Shown here one piece after another: positions 46,853 to 59,053 of a stretch of 64,000 bases of DNA; the first letter of the stretch is position 1; each line of letters starts with the position of its first letter. The notes under the pieces were generated by a model that made no database searches, was not told where the DNA came from, and was given only the letters and a program-made list of their open reading frames with translations. The DNA comes from Pseudooceanicola sp. HF7. GTDB taxonomy: Bacteria > Pseudomonadota > Alphaproteobacteria > Rhodobacterales > Rhodobacteraceae. The stretch is taken from contig NZ_JAATOW010000004.1 of assembly GCF_011806405.1 (NCBI RefSeq), positions 1 through 64,000 of the forward strand. The letters are read 5' to 3'. Position numbers and translations under genes: made by a program.

Positions 46853-47836
46853 ATGAACGCAACACTGGAAAGATTTGGCGGCGTGAACCTGCTGCCGCTG
46901 GCGGTGGCCGCCGTGGCCTTCGTGCTAATCGGCGCACCGTCCAGCTGGGTGACCCTGACCGTGGCGGGCCTTGCCATGGGCATGATGGTCTTTCTCATGG
47001 CCTCCGGCCTGTCGCTGGTCTTCGGGCTGATGGACGTGCTGAACTTCGGGCATTCGGCTTTTGTCAGCCTTGGTGCCTTCATCGCGGCAAGCGTGCTGGC
47101 GGCCCTTGGCGGCTGGCTGGGCTCGCCCTCCGTCCTGATGAACGTGGCCGCTCTGGCCGCCGCCCTTGGCGCGGCGATGCTGTTCGGCCTGCTGGCCGGG
47201 CTGTTCTTCGAGAAGGTGATCATCAAGCCGGTCTATGCCGACCACCTGCGCCAGATCCTGATCACCATGGGCGCGCTGATCGTGGTCGAGGAAGCGATCC
47301 TGGCGATCTGGGGCGGCACGCCCATCACCGTGCCCCGCCCTGCCTTCCTTGAGGGGGCCTGGATCATCGGGGATGTCTCTATCGAGATCTACCGGGCCTT
47401 CGCCTTTGCCCTGGGCCTGATCGTCTTCGGCGGGCTTTACTGGGTGCTGAACCGGACGCGCCTTGGGCTGCTGATCCGCGCCGGCGTCGAGAACCGCGAG
47501 ATGGTCGAGGCACTTGGCTTCCGCATCGACCGGCTGTTCGTCGGGGTCTTCATGCTGGGCTCTGCACTGGCGGCCCTGGGTGGGGCCATGTGGGCGGGCT
47601 ACCAGACGCTGATCACCCCGGCCCTTGGGGCAGAGATGATGATCGTGGTCTTCATCGTGGTGATCATCGGTGGCCTCGGCTCCATCGAGGGCACCCTTCT
47701 CGGCGCGCTGATGGTCGGGCTGGTGGCCAACTACGTGGGCTTCCTTGCCCCGAAACTGTCCCTGGCCTCGAACATGATCCTGATGATGATCATCCTCATG
47801 TGGCGGCCGTCCGGCCTGCGACCAGCGGTGAAGTGA
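46853..47836 (+). CDS. Liv-type ABC transporter permease (LivH-like)
   Basis: A 327-residue LivH-class permease with about eight hydrophobic helices. GLSLVFGLMDVLNFGHSAFV is the family hallmark (GxxxIFGxxxxxNFAHG), and VIIGGLGSIEGTLLGALMVG is the conserved C-terminal motif. It forms the membrane channel with the LivM-like protein, whose gene starts two bases after its stop. Confidence 0.9.
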   Translation: MNATLERFGGVNLLPLAVAAVAFVLIGAPSSWVTLTVAGLAMGMMVFLMASGLSLVFGLMDVLNFGHSAFVSLGAFIAASVLAALGGWLGSPSVLMNVAALAAALGAAMLFGLLAGLFFEKVIIKPVYADHLRQILITMGALIVVEEAILAIWGGTPITVPRPAFLEGAWIIGDVSIEIYRAFAFALGLIVFGGLYWVLNRTRLGLLIRAGVENREMVEALGFRIDRLFVGVFMLGSALAALGGAMWAGYQTLITPALGAEMMIVVFIVVIIGGLGSIEGTLLGALMVGLVANYVGFLAPKLSLASNMILMMIILMWRPSGLRPAVK

Positions 47837-47837
47837 C

Positions 47838-48905
47838 ATGAAACAGAGCTACGGAACCCTTGGCGTGAAACTGGCGGTGCTGGCAATCTGGGCCGCGCTG
47901 CTGTTCGGCCCCTTCCTGTTCCAGGACGTGCGCTCCATCCAGGTGGCGGCACGGATCTGCATCTTCATCGTGCTGGTGGCCAGCTATGACCTGCTGATCG
48001 GCTATACCGGCATCGTCAGCTTTGCCCATACGATGTTCTTCGGCTTCGGCGCCTATGGTGCGGCGATCCTGCTGAAACAGATGGGCCCGGGCTGGACACC
48101 GGTGCTGCTGGGCGCCGGCGCGGGCGCGGCGCTGTCGCTGGTGATCGCAGCGGGCATCGGCCTGCTGTCCCTGCGCGTCAAGGCGATCTTCTTTGCCATG
48201 ATCACCCTGGCGGCCGCCTCTGTCGCGCTGGTGCTGGCCTCTCAGCTGTCGCATCTGACGGGGGGCGAGGACGGGATCACCTATCGCGCGCCGGACCTGT
48301 TCAAGCCGGCAACCAAGCTGCTGACCGACGGTGACGGCAAGGTGCTCAAACTCTGGGGGGTCAGCCTGAACGGCAAGGTCGCGGCCTATTACTTCGTCTT
48401 CCTGAGCTGTGCGGCGCTGTTCTGGCTGATGCTGCGGCTGGTCGGTTCGCCCCTTGGCACGGTCCTGAAGGCCATCCGAGAGAACGAGGCCCGCGCCGAG
48501 GCGATCGGCTATCGCGTGGTGGCCTATCGCACCTTCGTCTTCTGCATCTCCGCGGTCATCGCCTCGCTCGCCGGGACGGTCTACGCGGTCTGGCTGAAGT
48601 ACACGGGCCCGGAAACCGCGCTGAGCTTCGACATCATGATCGACATCCTGCTGATGGTGGTGATCGGCGGCATGGGCACCATGTTCGGCCCAGTGATCGG
48701 GGCGGTTCTGCTGGTGCTGGCGCAATACTACCTGCGCGACCTGATGGGCGCGGCCTCTGAGGCGGTCAGCGCCATCCCCCTGCTGCCGGAGCTGCTGAAC
48801 CCGGATCGCTGGCTGTTCTGGCTGGGCATCCTGTTCATCCTGCTGGTCTATTTCTTCCCGAAAGGGATCGCAGGCACGGCGATGCTGAAAGGCAGCCGGA
48901 CATGA
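47838..48905 (+). CDS. Liv-type ABC transporter permease (LivM-like)
   Basis: A 355-residue LivM-class permease. LLIGYTGIVSFAHTMFFGFG and LKAIRENEARAEAIGYRV are the class signatures, and IGGMGTMFGPVIGAVLLV the C-terminal motif. Its stop overlaps the start of the hydrolase gene by four bases, so the hydrolase is certainly part of the same transcript. Confidence 0.9.
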   Translation: MKQSYGTLGVKLAVLAIWAALLFGPFLFQDVRSIQVAARICIFIVLVASYDLLIGYTGIVSFAHTMFFGFGAYGAAILLKQMGPGWTPVLLGAGAGAALSLVIAAGIGLLSLRVKAIFFAMITLAAASVALVLASQLSHLTGGEDGITYRAPDLFKPATKLLTDGDGKVLKLWGVSLNGKVAAYYFVFLSCAALFWLMLRLVGSPLGTVLKAIRENEARAEAIGYRVVAYRTFVFCISAVIASLAGTVYAVWLKYTGPETALSFDIMIDILLMVVIGGMGTMFGPVIGAVLLVLAQYYLRDLMGAASEAVSAIPLLPELLNPDRWLFWLGILFILLVYFFPKGIAGTAMLKGSRT

Positions 48906-49750
48906 GCCCCCGATTTTCGCTGGTCCCGATCATGGATCATGAGATCCACGTGACCGAATGGGGCGATCCCGCAAAGCCCGGGCTGGTCATGTGGCATGGC
49001 CTGGCCCGTACGGGGCGGGATTTCGATGAGCTGGCCGCGGCGCTTTCCGACAACTACTTCGTGATCTGTCCCGACACCCTGGGCCGGGGGTTTTCAAGCT
49101 GGGCCGGCACCGCGGAAACCGAGTATTCGGTGGCCTATTACGCCGGCATCGCCGCCGACCTGCTGGACCATTACGGGTTGGAAACCACCTGCTGGCTAGG
49201 CACCTCCATGGGCGGGATGATCGGGATGCGCCTGGCCTCTGGCCCACAGAAGGACCGGGTGGCCGGGTTGATCATCAACGATATCGGCCCTGAGATCCCC
49301 GATCCGGCCATCAGGCGGATCCTCGACTACGTCGGCGACCTGCCACGCTTTGACACGCTGATCCGGGCAGAGTCCTGGCTGCGCGAGACCTACCGCCCCT
49401 TCGGCCCGGCCACGGATGATTTCTGGCGGCGCATGACGCTTAGCTCTGCCAGGCGCAATCCCGATGGCAGCCTGACCCTGCATTATGATCCGCGCATTAT
49501 CCTGCAGTTCTCGCAATGGCCAGAGGAGCTGACCACCTGGGATCGCTGGGACAGGATCACCGCCCCTTGCCACGTCTTCCGGGGGGCGGAGTCCGACCTG
49601 CTGACCCGGGAGATCGCCGAGCGCATGGCCGAAAGCGGCCCCCGTCCAGAGGTGACGGAGGTCGCGGACTGCGGTCATGCCCCCACCCTGACCCGGCCCG
49701 GCGATATCGCACAGGTCCGGGAGGTGCTGGCGGGGTTCAGAAGGCCTTGA
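48902..49750 (+). CDS. Alpha/beta hydrolase linked to the Liv-type importer
   Basis: A 282-residue alpha/beta-fold hydrolase, no signal peptide, hence cytoplasmic. The oxyanion region is MWHGLARTGRDFDEL, the nucleophile elbow is GTSMGGMIGM with Ser in place, an acid is likely in RGAESDLLT, and the His is in DCGHAPTL. It overlaps the permease stop by four bases and its end overlaps a convergent Lrp-like gene by 14 bases. It probably hydrolyses the imported compound; esters, lactones or amides are all possible. Confidence 0.85.
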   Translation: MSPRFSLVPIMDHEIHVTEWGDPAKPGLVMWHGLARTGRDFDELAAALSDNYFVICPDTLGRGFSSWAGTAETEYSVAYYAGIAADLLDHYGLETTCWLGTSMGGMIGMRLASGPQKDRVAGLIINDIGPEIPDPAIRRILDYVGDLPRFDTLIRAESWLRETYRPFGPATDDFWRRMTLSSARRNPDGSLTLHYDPRIILQFSQWPEELTTWDRWDRITAPCHVFRGAESDLLTREIAERMAESGPRPEVTEVADCGHAPTLTRPGDIAQVREVLAGFRRP

Positions 49751-49976
49751 AGGTGAGGGTCGTGAGGGTCCGTTCGATCCCCTCGATCCCGCCGAAGCTC
49801 TGATCGACGAAATGGCCAATGTCCTGCCCTTTGGGTGGGTAGATCTTGACCAGAAGATCGAACTCTCCGGAGGTCGAGTAGAGCTCGGAGTGGAATTCAC
49901 GCAGGTTGATCGCTGCGGCGACGTCATAGGTGGTGCCGGGCTTGCAGCGCACCTGCACGAAGAGCGGGGTGGTCAT
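49737..49976 (-). CDS. Stand-alone Lrp/AsnC ligand-binding (RAM) domain protein
   Basis: A 79-residue protein consisting only of the Lrp/AsnC effector-binding domain, without a helix-turn-helix. LFVQVRCKPGTTYDVAAAI, LHSTSGEFDLLVKI-like LYSTSGEFDLLVKIY and a C-terminal RTLTTLTFKAF are visible. Such small proteins may bind amino acids or modulate full-length Lrp relatives. The ATG at 49976 was chosen for the AAAGGACAG upstream. It lies 67 bases after the His-rich gene on the same strand and could belong to the guanidine operon. Confidence 0.82.
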   Translation of the reverse strand: MTTPLFVQVRCKPGTTYDVAAAINLREFHSELYSTSGEFDLLVKIYPPKGQDIGHFVDQSFGGIEGIERTLTTLTFKAF

Positions 49977-50043: not shown

Positions 50044-50490
50044 TTACAACCGGTCTCTCAGGAAGTCACGGATATCCCAAAGGACTTTTTCCCGCATGGA
50101 GACGTAGACAAGCGACATGTTGGTCCGCTCCGTCACCATCTGGCCGGGAAAGGGCAGATAGGACAGCTCAGCCGCGCCGAAGCTGGGCGAGGCGGTGCCC
50201 ACCTGCCATTCGGTCTTGAGCTCCACATCCACCAGTTTCAGCGCCGTGTCGCCGCCCTTTCCGGGCCGCTCCAGCGGTACGCCCGCCAGCTTGAGGTAGC
50301 TGGCCTTGTCTGCGGCAGAGACAAACCCGTCGATGAACTGCGCGGTCAGGACCTGAAGATCCGCGGCCTCGTCCCGGTCATGCATGTGGGAATGCAGGTG
50401 ATCGGCCTCATGGGGGTGATTGTGGTCATGGGGATGAAGGTGGTCGTGATCATGTCCGTGGTGGTGATGATGCGGGTGGTCATGGGGCAT
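50044..50490 (-). CDS. Histidine-rich protein, candidate metallochaperone of the guanidine operon
   Basis: A 148-residue protein that I do not recognise as a named family. Nineteen of the first 37 residues are His, mostly in HD/HP/HH alternation, then comes an ordinary globular part (LTAQFIDGFVSAADKASYLK; FGAAELSYLPFPGQ; REKVLWDIRDFLRDRL). The ATG at 50490 has AGGAGG at an ideal distance. It follows the guanidine-hydrolase-like gene by 141 bases. Known guanidine hydrolases need nickel supplied by HypA/HypB-like factors, which are absent here, so a role in nickel binding or delivery is a reasonable inference. Zinc or copper buffering is the alternative. Confidence 0.75.
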   Translation of the reverse strand: MPHDHPHHHHHGHDHDHLHPHDHNHPHEADHLHSHMHDRDEAADLQVLTAQFIDGFVSAADKASYLKLAGVPLERPGKGGDTALKLVDVELKTEWQVGTASPSFGAAELSYLPFPGQMVTERTNMSLVYVSMREKVLWDIRDFLRDRL

Positions 50491-50631
50491 GGGTTGCCTC
50501 CTGTAGAATGAGGGCTGCGCGCTTCCGTCTTCCTGAACCTCCGGGCGACGGCGCCCCAAAGGCGCGACGGGAAGGGCGGGCGCGACCCGGCATGCCGCCG
50601 GGCCGGATGCTAGGGCGAGGTCGGGGCAGGA

Positions 50632-51876
50632 TCACCTCTTGTTCGACCAGCGATTGCCCTCGAATTCCCCGTGAGGGATCTCGACCGGCTTGTCGATGTG
50701 GCGCTTGTGATTGCCCAGCACCCCGGCCGAAACCATGGAGCCGAGCACGTCCACGATGACTCGCGTGCCCATCAGCGCGGTGATGTCCGAGGTGTCATAG
50801 GGCGGAGAGACCTCGACCAGCTCCATGCCGCAGATACCTTCGGCCGCCACCTTGGAGGCCAGCGCCAGAGCCTCTCGCGGCAGGAAGCCGCCGGGTTCGG
50901 GCCAGCCGGTGCCGGGCACGAAGCCGCAATCGATGCTGTCGATGTCGAAGGACATGTAGACCATGTCGACCCCGTCCCAGGCCATCTCGAGCGCCATCTC
51001 GGCGGTCTTGTCGATGCCCATGCGCTCCATGTCGGACATGGTGATGATGTTGGTCTCGCGCTCGCGCGCCACCTTCACCGCGTCGCGGGGCACCTGCCAG
51101 CCGCCGATGCCGACCTGCACCAGGTTCTTGGCCGGCACGTTGGGCAGGTTCGTCGAATGGAACCAGGGCGTGGTGTGCATCCGCTCGTCCAGGTCCTTTT
51201 CCTGGATGTCGGCGTGACGGTCGAAGTGCACGATGCCGATCTTCTTGCTGGTGCACTCCGCGATCCCGCGCACGCAGGGGAAGCCGATGGAGTGATCCCC
51301 GCCGATCATGATGGGCAGCGAGCCCGAGGAAAACACGTGGCTGACCGCGCGGCTGATCTGGTCGAAGCTCTTCTCGATATTGGCGGGGATGGTGAAGACG
51401 TCACCCGCGTCGCACAGCGTCATCTGCTCGCGCAGGTCGACGCCCAGTTCATAGTTGTAAGGCGTGTAGAGCGCCGAGATCTTGCGCAGCCCCTGCGGCC
51501 CGAAGCGGGTGCCGGGCCGGTAGGTCGTGCCGCCGTCGAAGGGGATGCCAAGCACGGTCGCGTCGTAATTGGCGACCTCAAGCACGTCCTCTGCATAGGG
51601 CGCCTTGAGGAAGGTGTTGATGCCCGCGTAATGGGGCAGCTCACCGCGCGCAAAGGTGGGGATCGACTTGTCGTCGATGCTGTCGGCGCCGGTCAGCCCC
51701 ATGCGCAGGGCCCATTTACGCTCTTCCGCCCAGCCTGAGCCGGACAGCTCCGCCTCTTTCTGCATGGCCTTCCAGCCCAGCAGCTTGGTCAGGTCCGGGT
51801 GGTGCGCGCGCCGGTCCGGGGACCGGCGATCGGCCGGGTGATGCGAGCGGCTGCGCTCATGCGGAAAGCAGAACAT
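50632..51876 (-). CDS. gdmH: Guanidine hydrolase-like ureohydrolase (GdmH type)
   Basis: A 414-residue arginase/agmatinase-superfamily enzyme. All six metal-ligand positions are present: His195 (GGDHS), Asp219, His221 and Asp223 (HFDRHADIQ) and Asp311 and Asp313 (SFDIDSID). It differs from agmatinase in having DRHAD instead of DAHTD and an N-terminal extension of about 100 residues (KLLGWKAMQKEAELSG; DSIDDKSIPTFARGELPHYA). That extension is typical of the nickel-dependent guanidine hydrolases. The start at 51876 follows GGAGG and overlaps the ATPase gene by 20 bases. With the upstream riboswitch, the reaction guanidine to urea plus ammonia is strongly suggested. Confidence 0.85.
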   Translation of the reverse strand: MFCFPHERSRSHHPADRRSPDRRAHHPDLTKLLGWKAMQKEAELSGSGWAEERKWALRMGLTGADSIDDKSIPTFARGELPHYAGINTFLKAPYAEDVLEVANYDATVLGIPFDGGTTYRPGTRFGPQGLRKISALYTPYNYELGVDLREQMTLCDAGDVFTIPANIEKSFDQISRAVSHVFSSGSLPIMIGGDHSIGFPCVRGIAECTSKKIGIVHFDRHADIQEKDLDERMHTTPWFHSTNLPNVPAKNLVQVGIGGWQVPRDAVKVARERETNIITMSDMERMGIDKTAEMALEMAWDGVDMVYMSFDIDSIDCGFVPGTGWPEPGGFLPREALALASKVAAEGICGMELVEVSPPYDTSDITALMGTRVIVDVLGSMVSAGVLGNHKRHIDKPVEIPHGEFEGNRWSNKR

Positions 51877-52624
51877 TGTGTTCCTCCATGATATCTTGGA
51901 AGGGAATGCCACCATTTCTGGCGTCGAAGTCGTAGGTGATCGTGGCGCCGTAATTATCCGGGTAGTCCGCGTCCCAGCGGGTCTTGTCGAAGACCAGCAC
52001 GCGGTCGCCCAGCTTGAACCCCTCTTCGAGGTCATGGGTCACCATGAAGACGGTCATGCGCGTCTGGGCGCGCAGTTCCATCAGGAAGTCATGCATGGCC
52101 AGGCGCGTACCCGGATCCAGCGCGCCGAAGGGTTCATCCAGCAGCAGGATGCGCGGGCGGGCCACGAGCGCCTGTCCGATGGCAAGGCGCTGCTGCATGC
52201 CACCCGAAAGCGTGGCCGGATAGGCATCCGCCACATGGGCCAGCCCGATCCGGTTCAGCGTTTCATCGGCGCGGTCAAGCGCCTGTTTCTTGCCGGCCCC
52301 GTAGAAGCGGCCCCAGCAGCGGTGAAAGCTTTCCCCCGCCACGATGTTTTCGCGCACGCTCATGTGCGGAAAGACCGAGTAGCGCTGGAAGACCACGCCG
52401 CGTTCGCGCCCCGGCTCCACCGCCGGATCATTGCCGTCGATGCGGATGGTACCGCGCGTCGGCACCTCCTGCGCCAGAAGCAACCGCAGGAAGGTAGACT
52501 TGCCGCAGCCCGAAGCGCCGACGATGGAGATGAAGTCTCCTTTGGCCACGTCCAGGTTGACGCGTTCAAGGATCGGGCGACTACCGTAGCTCTGGAAGAT
52601 GTTTCGAACCTCGACGAAGCTCAT
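51857..52624 (-). CDS. ABC transporter ATPase, guanidine/urea-carboxylase-region type
   Basis: A 255-residue NitT/TauT-class ATPase. Walker A is GASGCGKST, the signature TLSGGMQQRLAIGQALVARP and Walker B ILLLDEPFGALDP. The C-terminal tail DYPDNYGATITYDFDARNGG is characteristic of ATPases encoded next to guanidine/urea carboxylase genes. The ATG at 52624 overlaps the permease stop (ATGA); a longer open frame upstream only shadows the permease. Confidence 0.9.
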   Translation of the reverse strand: MSFVEVRNIFQSYGSRPILERVNLDVAKGDFISIVGASGCGKSTFLRLLLAQEVPTRGTIRIDGNDPAVEPGRERGVVFQRYSVFPHMSVRENIVAGESFHRCWGRFYGAGKKQALDRADETLNRIGLAHVADAYPATLSGGMQQRLAIGQALVARPRILLLDEPFGALDPGTRLAMHDFLMELRAQTRMTVFMVTHDLEEGFKLGDRVLVFDKTRWDADYPDNYGATITYDFDARNGGIPFQDIMEEHNVLLSA

Positions 52625-53433
52625 AGCGCGGCCTCCGTCCAGGGGAAGGCCTTCCGGGACAGGAGACGCAGGGCGTAATCCATGAGGAAGGCCAGCAGGG
52701 TGATCCAGATGACGTAGGTCAGGATGACATCCATCGCGAGGTACCGCCGGACCAGGAAGATGCGATAGCCCAGCCCCAGCTGCGCCGCGATGGCCTCTGC
52801 CGCGATCAGGAACAGCCAGGCGGGGCCAAGCGCCAGGCGCACGGATGCGATCAGCCTTGGCAGGATCTGCGGCAGCACCACGCGCATGGCGATCACCGCC
52901 GACGAGGCCCCGAGCGTCTCTGCCTTGACGATCATCTCGCGGGGGATTTCCAGCGTGCGCGCTGACAGGTCGCGGATCATCACCGGGGTGATGCCGATCA
53001 CGATCAGCGCCACCTTGGAGACCTCTCCCAGCCCGAAGATGATGAAGAGGATCGGCAGGATCGCCAGGGGCGGCACCATGGAGATCACGCCGACAAAGGC
53101 ATTCAGCGTCCGCCGGGCATAGGGCAACATGCCGATGGCCATGCCGAAGGCCAGCGCCGACAGGGCGGCGATGCCCACGCCGATGGCCAGCCGTGCAAGG
53201 GAGGCCCCGGTGTCGTACCACAGCAGGATCCGACCGGAGCGCCTGTCGCCTTCCGTGAACAGCCGGATGGCGGTCTCAAGGATCTGGGCCGGGGCCGGCA
53301 GCAACTTGTCCTGCGGGTTCTCAGCCAGCCGCACTTCAGACCCGATGGCATAGGCCGCGAGTACTGCCACGAAAGGCAATGCCATCAGGACCAGCGCCGC
53401 GGGGCGTCCCGGACTTCGGTTGATCAGGCGCAT
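52621..53433 (-). CDS. ABC transporter permease, guanidine/urea-carboxylase-region type
   Basis: A 270-residue permease of the nitrate/taurine class (SsuC/TauC-like) with about six hydrophobic helices. The cytoplasmic coupling loop is VKAETLGASSAVIAMRVVLP, the region AFVGVISMVPPLAILPILFI the typical TauC-like segment. It follows the binding-protein gene after 55 bases containing a stem-loop. Confidence 0.9.
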   Translation of the reverse strand: MRLINRSPGRPAALVLMALPFVAVLAAYAIGSEVRLAENPQDKLLPAPAQILETAIRLFTEGDRRSGRILLWYDTGASLARLAIGVGIAALSALAFGMAIGMLPYARRTLNAFVGVISMVPPLAILPILFIIFGLGEVSKVALIVIGITPVMIRDLSARTLEIPREMIVKAETLGASSAVIAMRVVLPQILPRLIASVRLALGPAWLFLIAAEAIAAQLGLGYRIFLVRRYLAMDVILTYVIWITLLAFLMDYALRLLSRKAFPWTEAAL

Positions 53434-53458
53434 GGGTGACCTCCTGCTTGCAAGGGAA

Positions 53459-53480
53459 CCCGGACGGCAGACCGCCCGGG
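53459..53480 (-). promoter_or_regulatory. Intercistronic stem-loop after the guanidine-type binding-protein gene
   Basis: CCCGG-A-CGG (53459-53467) pairs with CCG-C-CCGGG (53472-53480) around a CAGA loop with a single A-C mismatch. It begins eight bases after the binding-protein stop, as in the other importer operons. Confidence 0.55.
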
Positions 53481-53488
53481 CAGAAGGG

Positions 53489-54553
53489 TCAGAGCGCGCC
53501 TTCGGCCGCCATGCTCACGTAGGTCGTGTCGTAGCGCATGTTCACGTTGCCCGCGTCCCCGGTGGTCGAGCCATCGGGATAGGTCACGCCGACGAAATCG
53601 GGACTGGGGGCACCTTCGCCCAGGATGCCCTTGTCAAAGAGGAAGTTCGCGACGGAAACCATGGTGTCGGGCAGCGCCGCGTCCTCAGCAAAGGCCTTTG
53701 CACTTTCGGGCGTGTAGAACATCGCCGTGGCGGCCAGCTGCGCCTTGTAGCCGGCAAGATCGGTGCCCGCGGCCTCTGCCATGGCGCTCAGCGCCTTGTC
53801 GCCTTCCGCCGTGCCGGAGGCCATGAGTGCCATGGTTTCATACCAGGCCCCGGTCACGGCCTTGCCGAAAGCGGGATTGGCTTCCAGCACGTCGGTATTC
53901 ACGAAGAGGCAGTCGATGATCTCTCCCGGAATGTCGCTGGAATCATAGAGGCTGAAGGCCTCCGGGTCCTCAAGGATGGCAGAGACCAGCGGGTTCCAGG
54001 TCACCACAACCTCAACATCCGGCGTCTGGAAGGCGGCAATCATGTCCGCATCAGAGGTGTTGATCACCCCACCCAGGTCGCGCTCGGAAAGCTCGACGCT
54101 TTCAAGCGCGCGGGCCAGCAGGTAATGGGAGACGGAGAGTTCCACCAAGTTCACCGGCTTGCCGGCAAGATCGGCCAGCGCCACCTCTCCCTTGGTGATG
54201 ATCGCGTCGTTGCCGTCCGAGTAGTCCCCGACGATCAGCGCGGTGCTGTCCACCCCTCCCCCAGCCGGAATGGAGAGCGCATCCATGTTGGTCGCCGTCA
54301 CGCCATCGAAGGCGCCCGCCGTGTATTGGTTGATGGATTCGATGTAATCGTTGAGCTGCACGACCTCCACGTCGATGCCGTATTTCGCGGCCCATTTGTC
54401 CATGATGCCGGAATCCTCGATATAGCCCCAGGGCATCCAGCCGGCGTAGATTGTCCAGGCCAGTCGGAAATCGGTCTTTTCCTGGGCCTGAAGGGTCGGA
54501 GCAGCCAGAACGGCGGCAAGGGTCGCAGCAGTAAGAACCTTTTTCTTCAGCAT
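53489..54553 (-). CDS. ABC transporter substrate-binding protein, guanidine/urea-carboxylase-region type
   Basis: A 354-residue periplasmic protein of the NMT1/TauA-like group formerly called 'putative urea ABC transporter, urea carboxylase region'. A signal peptide (residues 1-23) is followed by FRLAWTIYAGWMPWGYIEDS, GIDVEVVQLNDYIESINQY and FDGVTATNMDALSIPAGGGV, all hallmarks of that group. Family members are regularly controlled by guanidine-I riboswitches, and one lies just upstream here, so guanidine (or a guanidine derivative) is the likely ligand. The ATG at 54553 is preceded by GGGGAG. First gene of the operon. Confidence 0.9.
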   Translation of the reverse strand: MLKKKVLTAATLAAVLAAPTLQAQEKTDFRLAWTIYAGWMPWGYIEDSGIMDKWAAKYGIDVEVVQLNDYIESINQYTAGAFDGVTATNMDALSIPAGGGVDSTALIVGDYSDGNDAIITKGEVALADLAGKPVNLVELSVSHYLLARALESVELSERDLGGVINTSDADMIAAFQTPDVEVVVTWNPLVSAILEDPEAFSLYDSSDIPGEIIDCLFVNTDVLEANPAFGKAVTGAWYETMALMASGTAEGDKALSAMAEAAGTDLAGYKAQLAATAMFYTPESAKAFAEDAALPDTMVSVANFLFDKGILGEGAPSPDFVGVTYPDGSTTGDAGNVNMRYDTTYVSMAAEGAL

Positions 54554-54570
54554 GTTACATCTCCCCGTTG

Positions 54571-54607
54571 GTTCCGCCGATAGTATTGGTTTCCCCACTG
54601 GCGGAAC
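54571..54607 (-). promoter_or_regulatory. Hairpin between riboswitch and ribosome-binding site
   Basis: GTTCCGCC (54571-54578) and GGCGGAAC (54600-54607) form a perfect 8-bp stem with a 21-base loop, directly 5' of the GGGGAG ribosome-binding site and 34 bases 3' of the riboswitch core. There is no T-run. It may be part of the expression platform. Confidence 0.5.
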
Positions 54608-54640
54608 GAAAAGAGTAAGGGCGCGGGGCAAACCTGCGCA

Positions 54641-54745
54641 GTACTCTCCCGGGATTTTGGCCCGCCGTGTACCTGCCCGGAATTTGCCGGGAAGGCGGTG
54701 CTTCTTGGACCAGGCTTCGCGGTAAGCGAACGGAACCCTAAGCGC
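54641..54745 (-). ncRNA. Guanidine-I (ykkC-yxkD) riboswitch
   Basis: On the minus strand the leader reads, in order, UUAGGGUUCCG (54733-54743 region), a UUCGC/GCGAA hairpin, CUGGUCC, a CCCGG/CCGGG hairpin, and UACACGGCGGG then CAAAAUCCCGGGAGA. The strings UAGGGUUCCG, CUGGUCC, ACACGG and the closing CCCGGGAGA are the conserved core of the guanidine-I riboswitch. The usual GAGAG after CUGGUCC is AAGA here, a small deviation. It should switch on the downstream importer and guanidine hydrolase when guanidine binds. Confidence 0.92.
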
Positions 54746-54870
54746 CCTGCCCTTTCAGACCAGCATCGCGAGGCCCCTGTGGGCAAGCGCAAATGAGGCG
54801 GCTGGGAAGCAGCCGGGGCAGAAAGGTCAAGAAACAAGCAGAAACAGGGGAAGATCCCGCTGGAGGGTTC

Positions 54871-54982: not shown

Positions 54983-56767
54983 TCAGGCGATGGCGCCAAG
55001 AGCCGGGGGGACGGGGATCGCGTCCTCGGGGCCGTTGTCATCACGGGTCCAGCGGTCATGGATGGCGCGGTAATGGCGGATGACCGGACTGGGTGCCGCC
55101 TCTTCCGGGGTCTGAAACAGTCCGGAGATCCCAACGCGAGAGGTCAGCGCGATCAGCAGCGGCGCAAGCAGCATCGGCACGGCCACCGGCAGCAGCCAAA
55201 TCAGCAGACCGGGCGCAATCCACCAAGTGGCTGTCAGCGCGGCAGCCCCGAAAAGCGTGATCCAGAACCCGGCGGCGATGCCCTGCCCGATGGTCAGGCG
55301 ACCTTCTCCGCGCTGGTTGGCGGGCCAACCGCCGTCCCGGCCCATCAGAACCTGAAGCACGGCGCGGGACTGATACATCAGCATGACCGGGGCCAGAAGA
55401 GACGAAAGCAGCAGCTCCACCAGGACCGATCCCGCAGCCTTGAGGCTACCGCCAAAGCCGACGGCGCGGCGGGTCATGGCGGACTCGATCAGGATGGAAA
55501 GCTTGGGCAGCACCAGCAACCCGACAACCCCGATCCCAAGCGCGATGATCTGCTGGGTCTGGTCAGAAGGGAACACCGGGAAAAGCTGGTAGGTGTCCGG
55601 GAAGTAATCAGGTGCCGGCGCGAAGACAGCTCCGGCGACGGAGGCAATAAGGAAAAGCCCCCAGACCAGCGAAACGAGATAGGCGAAGATCCCCTGCACG
55701 AAGACAAAGCGGCTCCAGGCGCGCAGGCCGGGCGCTGTCAGCAGGCGGATGTGCTGCAGGTTGCCCTGGCACCAGCGGCGGTCGCGCTTGGCGAAGGACA
55801 GGATGTTCTCAGGCCCCTCTTCGTAGGATCCGTCGATGGTTTCATCGACGCGCACGGACCAACCGGCGCGGGCCAGCAGCGCTGCTTCAACGTAGTCATG
55901 CGACAGGATGTGCCCGCCGAAGGGCGGTTTGCCGGCGAGAGGCGGCAGGGCACAGCTTTCCGCGAAGGCGCGCGTTCGAATGATCGCGTTGTGCCCCCAG
56001 AAGGGACCGGTGGTGCCTTGCAGGCGGGCCAGCCCGCGCGCGAAGACCGGCGAAAAGAAGCTGGCGGAGAACTGCATCGCCCGTCCGAAAACAGAGGTCG
56101 CACCGGTGATCTTCGGCAGGGTCTGGAGGAGACCAAGATCGGGGTCGGCCTGCATCTCGGCGATCATGCGGCGAATGGCTTGGCCTTCCATCAGGCTGTC
56201 GGCATCCAGGATGACCGCAAGCTCATAGGCCGCGCCGGAATTGCGGATGAAATCCTCGATATTGCCGGCCTTGCGGCCCCGGTTGTCCTGACGACGGCGA
56301 TAGAAGATGCGACCCTGCCCGGCGGTTTCATCCAGCAGGTGGGCAAAGGCATTCCGCTCACCACTCGCCGCGTCTTCATCGCGCGTGTCAGACAGCACGG
56401 CGATATCCGCGGCCACGCCCGCCGCCTGGATGGAATGATCCATGGCGGCGATACGGGCGAAGGTGGCAACCGGGTCTTCATTGCAGATGGGCACAAGCAC
56501 GATGCAGCGCGGCTGCGGCATCATCATGGCCGGTTCCGCGCGGCGGCGGCGCGGCATCAGGCCGACAAGCGAAAGGGAGGCCCCCCAGGCAAGCCAAGCC
56601 GTGGTCAGGAAGATCAGCACAGAGCGAGCGATGTCCCAGACGTCTGTCCCGTCTTCCAGCGCGGCGTCGGTCAGCATGATGGTCGCGATTGTGGCGGCCA
56701 GCAGGGCAAAGCCGATCGCCAAGCCCCGGTACAGCCGCGTCACGGCCATCTTTGCGTCATCGCCCAT
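54983..56767 (-). CDS. opgH: Glucans biosynthesis glucosyltransferase H (OpgH/MdoH)
   Basis: A 594-residue inner-membrane glycosyltransferase that builds the beta-glucan backbone of osmoregulated periplasmic glucans. Two N-terminal helices (about residues 12-30 and 45-65) precede the GT2 domain: VPICNEDPVATFARI, RRRQDNRGRKAGNIEDF, the catalytic LDADSLMEG, SHDYVEAALL and the KRDRRWCQGN motif (QxxRW-like). Several C-terminal helices follow. It lacks the long N-terminal cytoplasmic part of Escherichia coli MdoH; a possible remnant is encoded separately just upstream. The ATG at 56767 has AGGGGACA upstream, part of a GTCCCCTGT direct repeat. Confidence 0.93.
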   Translation of the reverse strand: MGDDAKMAVTRLYRGLAIGFALLAATIATIMLTDAALEDGTDVWDIARSVLIFLTTAWLAWGASLSLVGLMPRRRRAEPAMMMPQPRCIVLVPICNEDPVATFARIAAMDHSIQAAGVAADIAVLSDTRDEDAASGERNAFAHLLDETAGQGRIFYRRRQDNRGRKAGNIEDFIRNSGAAYELAVILDADSLMEGQAIRRMIAEMQADPDLGLLQTLPKITGATSVFGRAMQFSASFFSPVFARGLARLQGTTGPFWGHNAIIRTRAFAESCALPPLAGKPPFGGHILSHDYVEAALLARAGWSVRVDETIDGSYEEGPENILSFAKRDRRWCQGNLQHIRLLTAPGLRAWSRFVFVQGIFAYLVSLVWGLFLIASVAGAVFAPAPDYFPDTYQLFPVFPSDQTQQIIALGIGVVGLLVLPKLSILIESAMTRRAVGFGGSLKAAGSVLVELLLSSLLAPVMLMYQSRAVLQVLMGRDGGWPANQRGEGRLTIGQGIAAGFWITLFGAAALTATWWIAPGLLIWLLPVAVPMLLAPLLIALTSRVGISGLFQTPEEAAPSPVIRHYRAIHDRWTRDDNGPEDAIPVPPALGAIA

Positions 56768-56807
56768 GATTGTCCCCTGTGTTGTCCCCTGTCGGCGCGG
56801 CTGCTGC

Positions 56808-56978
56808 TCAGGCGTGGCGCCATGCACCGAAGAGACGCGTGAACAGCCCGGTCACCTCACGGTCGCTCTCCAGCTGCTGGCGCGGCATGTCCAGAGGCGC
56901 CATCGGGGGTTCCCAATGGACGGCCTCAACGGCGGTGGCGTTTTCGGCGGCAGCGTGCAAATTCATATCGGCTTTCAT
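56808..56978 (-). CDS. Small ORF between opgG and opgH, possibly a detached OpgH N-terminus
   Basis: A 56-residue frame whose ATG overlaps the opgG stop as ATGA (56975-56978) and which ends 40 bases before opgH. The segment HWEPPMAPLDMPRQQLES resembles the short Pro/Met-rich motif found near the N-terminus of many alphaproteobacterial OpgH proteins. Its position recalls opgI in the Rhodobacter sphaeroides opgGIH cluster, though I cannot confirm homology from memory. The tight coupling argues that it is translated. Confidence 0.65.
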   Translation of the reverse strand: MKADMNLHAAAENATAVEAVHWEPPMAPLDMPRQQLESDREVTGLFTRLFGAWRHA

Positions 56979-58630
56979 TCGATCACCCATTGATAAAGCC
57001 AGGTCTCCGAGAGCGTGCGCCCGTAGCCCGACAGGTTGGCTTTAATTTCCACCAGCTCGGCATCCTTTGCGGCGATCTCCACCACCAGACGCCAAATCCC
57101 GGTTCCTTCGACCCGCGACAAAATCGTCTCGACGATCTCGCCATCAGTGGCCGTGACTGAAGGAGTAACCTCTGTCTCTCCAGTTAGTTCCGTGAGAAGT
57201 CCGCCGGTGAAGTCGATCACGAATTTCCGGCGGCCTTTCGCCGGTTCAGTTCCGGCAACGCCGCCTTGGCCGGCGCGGCTGCGCAGGATCTTGGCCAGTT
57301 CCTGCTGCCCGTAGCCGGCTTCCATGCCCCACCGCATCCGGTAGGACAGCTCATAGGAAGACCCCTTGGCGAAGGTCGTTTCGGGCACCCAGAAGGCCAC
57401 GATATTGTCGTTGACCTCCAGGTCCGAGGGGATCTCCACCAGTCGGACAGAGCCTTCGCCCCAATCCCCGAGCGGTTCGATCATGAGCGAGGGGCGCAGA
57501 TCGTAGCGGGCCTGGGCATCGAGGTATTCGTCGAAGTTCCGGTTGCGCTGAACCAGCCCGAAGCCCTTGGGGTTATAGGCCCAGAGGTAGGAGCTGGAGA
57601 GGCGCTCAGGGTTCTTCAGCGGGCGGTAGAAGGTGTCTTCCCCGGTCACCAGCACAAGCGCCTCGCTGTCATGGACCGCGGGGCGGAAATCATCGAACTC
57701 ACCGGCATCCACACCCCCGAAGAGGAACATGGAGGTCAAGGGCGCGATGCCAAGCTGCTGCACGTCCTCGCGCAGAAAGAGCCGCGCGGTGACATCCATG
57801 ATCGTTTCTTCCCCGGGCTGGACCACAAAGCGATAGGCCCCGGTGACGGAGGTGCTTTCAAGCGTGGCGTAGATCACCGTCTTGGTTTCTCCCGCCGCCG
57901 GTTTCTCCAGATAGAACGAAGTGAAGCGCGGGAATTCCTCGCCCGGGGCCAGCGCCGTGTTCACGGCCAGCCCGCGTGCGGAAAGCCCGTAGCGGTTGCC
58001 GCGGCCCAGGGCCCGGAAATAGGACGCCCCCAGGAAGGCGACGACCTCATCAAAGACATCGGCGCGGTTGAGCGGCGCATTGAGGCGGATGCCGGCGACG
58101 CCGGGCAGCGCCAGGTCCTGGGGCACCTTCTGATCCACGGGGGCGTGGAAAATAAAGTCGTCCATGGAAAAGCCCACCGGGGTGGCATTGCCATCGGCCA
58201 CTTCGTATACCGCGACAGGATCCTTGAACAGCCAGCCGGGCGCAAAGGCGTTGAGCCGGAAGAAGCTTTTGGGATCGGACCAGCGCGCCCTGTCAGGGTT
58301 GAACTGGATGTGCTGGTAATCGTCGTAGCCAAGGGCTGCGAGCGGGCCATCCATTTCCGACGGCTCCTGCGGCGCTTCGGAGGCGCGTTGGCGCATCTTC
58401 TCGGTCAGCGCATCGAAGCTGAAGGGCATGGACTGGGGCGCATCCTGAGGGGCCTCCTGACCAAGGGCGGGTCCGGAAGCGGTCAGGGCAAAAGGCAGGA
58501 CCGCCGCAGACCCGGCCATGCGGGTCAGCAGTTGGCGGCGCGACAAGGGGGCGGTTCTTTCCCCTTGGCGCCGGGCGATCCCGGCCGGACGGCGATCTTG
58601 GGCACGCGGGCAGCAGTCACGTGGCAGCAT
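56975..58630 (-). CDS. opgG: Glucan biosynthesis protein G (OpgG/MdoG family), Tat-exported
   Basis: A 551-residue periplasmic protein needed for osmoregulated periplasmic glucan synthesis. A twin-arginine signal (SRRQLLTRMAGSAAVLPF, ending ALG-Q) implies Tat export, as known for OpgD. FDALTEKMRQRAS, RAGNRYG-like RGNRYGLSARGLAVNTA and YLWAYNPKGFGLVQRNRNFD are hallmark OpgG/D blocks. The ATG at 58630 follows GAGGAATTTAC; a longer open frame upstream is not supported. Being followed by opgH, it is named opgG rather than opgD. Confidence 0.93.
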   Translation of the reverse strand: MLPRDCCPRAQDRRPAGIARRQGERTAPLSRRQLLTRMAGSAAVLPFALTASGPALGQEAPQDAPQSMPFSFDALTEKMRQRASEAPQEPSEMDGPLAALGYDDYQHIQFNPDRARWSDPKSFFRLNAFAPGWLFKDPVAVYEVADGNATPVGFSMDDFIFHAPVDQKVPQDLALPGVAGIRLNAPLNRADVFDEVVAFLGASYFRALGRGNRYGLSARGLAVNTALAPGEEFPRFTSFYLEKPAAGETKTVIYATLESTSVTGAYRFVVQPGEETIMDVTARLFLREDVQQLGIAPLTSMFLFGGVDAGEFDDFRPAVHDSEALVLVTGEDTFYRPLKNPERLSSSYLWAYNPKGFGLVQRNRNFDEYLDAQARYDLRPSLMIEPLGDWGEGSVRLVEIPSDLEVNDNIVAFWVPETTFAKGSSYELSYRMRWGMEAGYGQQELAKILRSRAGQGGVAGTEPAKGRRKFVIDFTGGLLTELTGETEVTPSVTATDGEIVETILSRVEGTGIWRLVVEIAAKDAELVEIKANLSGYGRTLSETWLYQWVIE

Positions 58631-59053
58631 GTAAATTCCTCGAACAGAACAACTTTCCCCGGAAAGGGGCACGGCTTTATCTTTCGCTCCGGACGAATAG
58701 TTGCAATCCGAGGCGCACAGGGGTGGCGACCTTTTGCCAAGGCCGCCCATGCCGCAACGCGGAAAGCGGGTAGTTTGTTCAATGTGGGTGGGCAGAAAAA
58801 TGCAGCGATGGTTTCCGAGCGGTAGAAACCCTAGTGATTCCGGTAAGTTGTCGGCAGGCAAATTACTGCCAATTGGCAGCGCTGCGCTAGAGGGATTCTG
58901 CGGGAGATTGCCGAATATCTTGGGGAAACGTGCCTAGGGGATCCGGCCACCGTGCAAGCGCAGCACGATGGGCGATTTTTGGCCAGCGTGACGCAGGGAA
59001 AGTGGCCAAACCCGGCCCATCCCAAGCCACCACTCCGCTGAAAACGTGAAAAA
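58631..59053. other. Intergenic region upstream of opgG
   Basis: No gene, RNA or repeat is recognised in these 423 bases between opgG and the terminator of the aminotransferase gene. The opgG promoter must lie here, most likely in the less GC-rich part around 58650-58860. Confidence 0.4.

Follow-up and report, generated by a model that had tools for sequence, protein, structure and literature searches.

A guanidine-use operon of Pseudooceanicola whose last gene encodes a candidate nickel chaperone for the guanidine hydrolase

An ATP-binding cassette (ABC) transporter and a guanidinase encoded behind a guanidine-I riboswitch have already been described in Synechocystis (PMC12186494, PMC8390497). 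There the guanidinase, GdmH, is encoded with nickel-delivery proteins (PMC12186494), which are named hypA and hypB in one paper (PMC8390497) and GhaAB in another (PMC11271267); the papers given by PMC number are cited throughout from the portions of their text that were available. Activation of the hydrolase MefH/DmgH required HypA/HypB, which were co-expressed (PMC11399263), and a strain deleted for metAB failed to grow on metformin (PMC11271267). In the portions available, the work on comammox bacteria reports no obvious nickel-loading protein and leaves open the nickel source of guanidinases without HypA/HypB neighbours (PMC11410670). The present analysis concerns a related locus in Pseudooceanicola sp. 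HF7, within the first 64,000 nucleotides of contig NZ_JAATOW010000004.1 (this whole stretch is called the window). It is probably a guanidine-use operon whose last gene, coding for a small His-rich protein, provides a nickel chaperone for the hydrolase, one that belongs to an undescribed family.

A preliminary description had proposed a guanidine import and hydrolysis operon at this place. The proposal is supported by an Rfam match, by a transporter of the TIGR03427 type and by the grouping of the hydrolase with solved guanidinases. The binding protein, permease and ATPase expected behind the aptamer are borne out by TIGR03427, PF00528 and PF00005, and the gene overlaps given at 52621-52624 and 51857-51876 are both exact. 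As such, the operon is of a known kind and unexceptional within it. A fifth gene, 50490-50044, lies inside the same interval and was left undescribed; it starts 141 bases after the hydrolase. The features are, in the order of transcription:

54644..54752, minus strand: guanidine-I riboswitch aptamer (RF00442, model positions 1-107 complete, 77.7 bits against a gathering score of 63, E 4e-12, Rfam)
54554..54643, minus strand: leader from the aptamer to the first start codon, with a conserved helix beside the ribosome-binding site; tentatively, the likely expression platform
53489..54553, minus strand: substrate-binding protein of the ABC transporter, 354 aa (TIGR03427, 510 bits against a cut-off of 334)
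52621..53433, minus strand: ABC permease, 270 aa (PF00528)
51857..52624, minus strand: ABC ATPase, 255 aa (PF00005); overlaps the permease gene by 4 bases
50632..51876, minus strand: guanidine hydrolase, a GdmH-type ureohydrolase, 414 aa (PF00491); overlaps the ATPase gene by 20 bases
50044..50490, minus strand: His-rich protein, 148 aa, candidate nickel chaperone of the hydrolase; no family match; adjoins GdmH

The His-rich gene travels with the hydrolase. A pattern-based scan of one genome per species (84,980 species), which detects close relatives only, returned 74 named chromosomal or draft loci with the gene. The hydrolase, 82-93% identical, lies just upstream on the same strand in all 74, and the gap between the two genes, with the starts chosen and overlaps counted, is at most 200 bases in 71. 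The three transporter genes stand in matching order in 72. Further downstream the loci have no gene in common: no cluster of frames within 6 kb reaches more than 22 of the 74, and the one that does lies a median of 4.1 kb away. The conserved unit thus ends with the His-rich gene. Two of 72,556 plasmid records contain a relative, and both hold the complete operon, with binding protein, permease, ATPase and the hydrolase, which the His-rich gene directly follows; their annotation calls the hydrolase 'agmatinase family protein' and the His-rich product 'hypothetical protein'. These records are large plasmids of two Rhodobacterales strains (L174, NZ_CP139692.1, and L175, CP049031.1), so the operon can change replicons.

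Genome samples give the same picture from the side of the enzyme. In the window's own order, 244 genomes were sampled; GdmH occurs in 24 of them (E up to 1e-130), the adjoining His-rich gene occurs in precisely these 24, and one further genome has a remnant of it. A sample of 398 genomes from the phylum, which overlaps the first, includes seven with GdmH (E up to 1e-110), all with the His-rich gene; four of these come from other families and have divergent versions, 31-34% identical (alignment A2). The only other match in that sample is the remnant already met in the first, in genome G071, where a 33-residue remnant of the His-rich C-terminus (L100 7275-7373) occurs in a genome with no GdmH match. 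The guanidine operon seems to have been lost there. For a second alphaproteobacterial order (that of G664, 219 genomes), a profile that included two proteins from that sample's own genomes found the adjoining gene in 25 of the 27 genomes that have GdmH or an enzyme close to it (E up to 1e-90) and in none of the 192 others.

Altogether, 51 of 53 distinct sampled GdmH genomes carry the His-rich gene just downstream. Fisher tests of the linkage give 1e-33 and 7e-31, values that are not true probabilities because the genomes are related. A separate search of 60 relatives matched nine genomes, seven of them with GdmH beside the gene; in G003 and G012 the match is confined to the His tail, and no GdmH was found in their 3-kb loci.

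The two GdmH genomes without the gene (L146, 6584-8508, and L147, 1362-3372) encode enzymes that share 58% identity with the search query, with a His-rich insert of their own after the DRHxD region and without the Trp of the PGTGW motif. No guanidine-I riboswitch was found at either locus with model R1, a model built from 16 aptamers. These may be different enzymes, possibly with another substrate. By reading, both have a LysR-like regulator nearby, and a neighbour in L147 encodes a protein with a His-rich stretch and no Pfam or NCBIfam match.

A pairing in 51 of 53 genomes, together with a conserved domain, would also suit a protein that joins the hydrolase as a second subunit, helps it to fold or stabilises it, with the tail secondary; metformin hydrolase, which depends on its second subunit for activity, is comparable. 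This is unlikely. The N. inopinata guanidinase is a homohexamer like that of Synechocystis and is presented, in the portions available, without such a subunit (PMC11410670), and the tail has at least seven His in 51 of 51 aligned proteins.

The 148-residue protein begins with a tail rich in His and Asp (MPHDH...GHN/DHN...HLHSH), followed by a domain of about 105 residues. An H-N pair in the tail is invariant, and HLHSH is usual within the window's own clade. In the 51 aligned proteins, the window's included, the segment before residue 40 has 26-74 residues with 7-27 His (median 15), and Cys occurs in three. Selection acts on the gene: for the core, the ratio of nonsynonymous to synonymous substitution (dN/dS) is about 0.07-0.29, with dN 0.09-0.20 against dS 0.6-1.3 in six comparisons, which indicates purifying selection. 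Together with the conservation, this rules out a chance open frame. Within the window's genus, genome G020 encodes a His-rich protein identical in sequence to that of P. pacificus (L004, L052).

Tail length and His count differ widely between relatives, and in one of them (L007) a His-rich stretch is found at the C-terminus too. A tail of such free length, nearly without Cys, could belong to a buffer or store for nickel or for metals in general, protecting the cell or maintaining a pool, which would leave the operon as described without any direct hand-over to the enzyme. Such a store is rather unlikely, as conservation lies mostly in the folded domain and not in the tail, and as the gene is strictly tied to GdmH.

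The nickel chaperone proposed here would have no described relatives. Neither Pfam nor NCBIfam has a family for the His-rich protein, and 43 aligned members gave no convincing Pfam match, the best being a ZIP transporter on the His tail (E 0.005). Models of HypA and HypB do not match the protein in Pfam or NCBIfam and are absent from the Pfam matches of the 43 members; likewise, the UreE_N and UreE_C domains were not found in it or in the 43 members with Pfam. A profile of the 43 sequences finds no relative in the PDB, where the best match (a cytidylyltransferase, E 0.17) was taken as chance. An AlphaFold2 model from 51 sequences has a mean predicted local distance difference test score (pLDDT) of 84 and a predicted template modelling score of 0.64, with ten-residue blocks at 89 or above from residue 41 on. 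Foldseek found no significant PDB match for the conserved domain: two models, whose mean pLDDT is 75 and 84, gave best E values of 0.31 and 0.61.

As far as the libraries and searches used show, the His-rich protein is an undescribed family. No publication tying a His-rich protein to guanidine hydrolase was found in open-licence PMC papers, a scope that leaves out supplements and the primary GdmH paper (doi 10.1038/s41586-022-04490-x).

The partner enzyme has the features of a guanidinase. Its best PDB matches are Synechocystis GdmH (7esr/7oi1, 553 bits) and the N. inopinata guanidinase (9fek, 536 bits), to which it is identical at 233 of 354 (65.8%) and 225 of 356 (63.2%) positions in the printed alignments. 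The next PDB relative, proclavaminate amidino hydrolase, scores 177 bits, and metformin/dimethylguanidine hydrolases of the MefH/DmgH and metCaCb types score 132-139 bits. The dinuclear metal motifs of the arginase family, GGDHS, DxHxD and DIDxxD, are represented by GGDHS at 192, DRHAD at 219 and FDIDSID at 310.

The DRHxD motif (DRHAD here) and the N-terminal extension ahead of the arginase core, from which the preliminary description had recognized the enzyme, are present and common to both guanidinases, and the three other solved ureohydrolases aligned have DAHxD. DRHxD and PGTGWPEPGG, with its Trp, occur in the window's hydrolase, 7esr and 9fek and are absent from 1gq6, 3nio and 3nip. The place of the hydrolase among ureohydrolases, which had been named as a check, also agrees: a small FastTree tree of 12 sequences puts it with the proven guanidinases, setting these two and its alphaproteobacterial relatives apart with support 0.946. 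Its nearest named relative is that of Pseudooceanicola sediminis (93%, L013). Bit scores, tree grouping and the motifs held in common thus support, at the level of sequence, a guanidine hydrolase with guanidine as its substrate.

The best NCBIfam matches of the hydrolase are agmatinase models, and the plasmid records name the gene as agmatinase family. However, every one of these matches is below its cut-off, and the bit score to proven guanidinases is about three times that to any other PDB ureohydrolase. The reading as an agmatinase was rejected on these scores together with the motifs and the tree. Given also the guanidine-I riboswitch upstream and the DRHxD and PGTGWPEPGG motifs, an agmatinase or a hydrolase of some other guanidino compound is very improbable.

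A guanidinase of this family would need nickel. A search for HypA in the window's own genome, 97% complete, gave no hit. Five proteins of this genome match PF02492, two of them weakly; the other three were typed as CobW, a ZigA-like protein (just under the cut-off) and UreG, and none of these three is HypB. Among the 51 carriers of the His-rich gene, 41 have no HypA above the cut-off and ten do, with one more below it. In those ten, HypA is on the GdmH contig in four, the nearest 45 kb off, and on other contigs in six.

In one genome (G464, L104 8786-9397), a HupE/UreJ nickel permease gene lies directly downstream of the His-rich gene. HupE/UreJ also adjoins the GdmH-like gene of L146, which lacks the His-rich gene. 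It was rejected as a regular member of the operon, as tblastn found it in G464 only among the downstream regions compared. The case for a nickel role is built on the metal that this enzyme family uses, the His-rich tail, the failure to find HypA and the nickel permease gene that occasionally lies nearby. The His-rich protein is a strong candidate nickel chaperone of the guanidinase.

Genes for urease alpha, UreE and UreG are located on another contig of the same genome, so the urea formed could be used. This fits the earlier suggestion that guanidine may be used as a nitrogen source via urea. The UreE (L101 10965-11525, contig C28) has a long His-rich C-terminal tail. Nickel might then come to the hydrolase from the UreE and UreG of the urease cluster, leaving the His-rich protein dispensable or in the service of another metal. 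This is quite improbable, because the His-rich gene is under purifying selection and occurs without GdmH only as the one remnant in the genome samples.

Several points nevertheless weigh against a dedicated nickel chaperone. Tails rich in His bind Zn, Cu or Co as well, and they have a part in storage. The genome's own UreE and UreG could serve urease and GdmH alike, and HypA is also present in ten of the 51 carriers. Family, profile and fold searches showed no resemblance of the domain to HypA, HypB or UreE. The strict linkage could result from inheritance of the operon as a block, as the genomes are not independent. Finally, in E. coli the activity of metformin hydrolase did not differ significantly with or without the chaperones MetAB (PMC11271267), and N. 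inopinata GdmH was produced without any known chaperone (PMC11410670). From these two results, a dedicated chaperone is not always needed.

The operon's control by guanidine rests on its aptamer. A riboswitch core had been placed at 54641-54745 on the minus strand, to be checked with the RF00442 covariance model; Rfam returns a significant match at 54752-54644 on that strand, which covers the model from end to end and exceeds the gathering score. No second Guanidine-I match was found in the 4.27 Mb genome. Rfam detects RF00442 in 15 of 18 related loci tried, the exceptions being L014, L083 and L100, the remnant locus. With model R1, to which 15 of the loci scanned had contributed, the aptamer is found in 72 of the 74 named loci (not L014 or L081; L083 is weak) and in 11 of 12 larger loci with a divergent His-rich gene (not L148).

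Between aptamer and start codon, a helix GTTCCGCC/GGCGGRAC (GTTCCGCC/GGCGGAAC) adjoins the ribosome-binding site and crosses a second helix. The crossing helices appear in the window's leader and 69 relatives and could form a pseudoknot or switch. The alignment of 70 comprises the window and 69 of the 72 aptamer loci; one duplicate, one leader of 138 bases and one without a binding-protein match were dropped. The helices were read by eye, and the structure tested was derived from one alignment row. In the helix near the ribosome-binding site, 86% of cells are paired, with two-sided changes at five of eight pairs. In the crossing upstream helix, 80% of cells are paired in the inner part and 34-59% in the outer parts.

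The whole leader structure has a covariation score of 0.194 against 0.156 when shuffled, and none of the 500 shuffles or slid versions reaches its score or its paired cells. Two-sided change affects 13 pairs, a number that does not stand out (shuffles 11.0, with 68 of 500 reaching 13; slid versions 12-15), and slid versions have up to 84 two-sided cells against 69. RNAalifold predicts no consensus structure for the alignment, and the fold of the whole leader is no more stable than shuffles (z -0.44). With an unremarkable count of two-sided pairs and no structure from RNAalifold, the helix reading is tentative.

Promoter and terminator scans gave nothing exceeding shuffles, and a run of five T is present in only two of 72 leaders. 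Given the scarcity of such runs and the conserved helix right in front of the ribosome-binding site, the operon is probably controlled at translation.

A gene at 49976-49737 was rejected as a member of the operon, since among 84 loci it stands beside the His-rich gene only in the window genome (L002) and in L003, and is kilobases off in L013 and L031. Its product is a stand-alone Lrp/AsnC ligand-binding (RAM) domain without the DNA-binding part (49737-49976, minus strand, 79 aa, PF01037). Upstream, at 54983-58861 on the minus strand, two long frames resemble, from their translations, a membrane glucosyltransferase and a periplasmic glucan protein (OpgH/OpgG-like). Convergent to the operon, at 46853-49750 on the plus strand, are two branched-chain-amino-acid-type permeases, also read from translations, and an alpha/beta hydrolase (PF12697).

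A mechanism can be proposed for the whole. The guanidine-I RNA class is established. Free guanidine would bind the aptamer and switch the operon on, probably at the ribosome-binding site. Guanidine would be imported by the ABC transporter, and the nickel ureohydrolase, judged by its close homologues, would split it to urea and ammonia; the urease whose genes are present could take the urea further. The His-rich protein, to judge by its position and tail, would load the hydrolase with nickel: the tail may gather Ni2+, and the folded domain may dock on the apo-enzyme and pass the metal on. It would thereby do the job of the HypA/HypB-like pair GhaA/GhaB of Synechocystis.

For the comammox question of where such guanidinases obtain nickel, the small protein accompanying GdmH in 51 of 53 sampled alphaproteobacterial carriers is a directly testable answer for this clade. 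A wider claim would make gene 50490-50044 the founder of a new family of nickel metallochaperones that act as single proteins, with a fold new to the PDB, dedicated to GdmH and replacing the HypA/HypB-like pair in Alphaproteobacteria; for and against it, the balance is about even. A chaperone of this kind would enlarge the short list of known nickel chaperones by a family and would help to make fully metallated guanidinase for nitrogen-cycle or guanidine-removal work.

Known systems resemble the locus in different parts. UreE and HypB have a His-rich segment beside a folded domain, and each is encoded in one operon with its nickel enzyme. They showed no detected relation to the window's His-rich protein in sequence or in fold, and the genome's own UreE lies elsewhere. 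Guanidine carboxylase operons of the Pseudomonas syringae type also have guanidine riboswitch control and ABC guanidine import (PMC11410670), but they use an ATP-dependent carboxylase route in place of hydrolysis.

The operon of comammox Nitrospira (N. inopinata, 9fek) likewise has a guanidine-I riboswitch and a guanidinase 63% identical to the window's. Unlike the window, it has an APC permease, no ABC transporter and, in the account available, no chaperone found (PMC11410670). The metformin/dimethylguanidine hydrolase operons (mefH/dmgH, metCaCb) also encode nickel ureohydrolases, in their case with operon-encoded nickel chaperones (PMC11399263, PMC11271267), whereas their enzymes are heteromeric, their chaperones are of the HypA/HypB type and their substrates are others.

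The operon of Synechocystis PCC 6803 (sll1077 for GdmH, GhaA/GhaB, and the ABC transporter sll1080-sll1082) has, like the window, a riboswitch, an ABC transporter and a nickel guanidinase (PMC12186494, PMC8390497). The two hydrolases are 66% identical. The difference is in the last component: Synechocystis encodes HypA/HypB-like chaperones, and the window's operon has an unrelated His-rich protein in their place.

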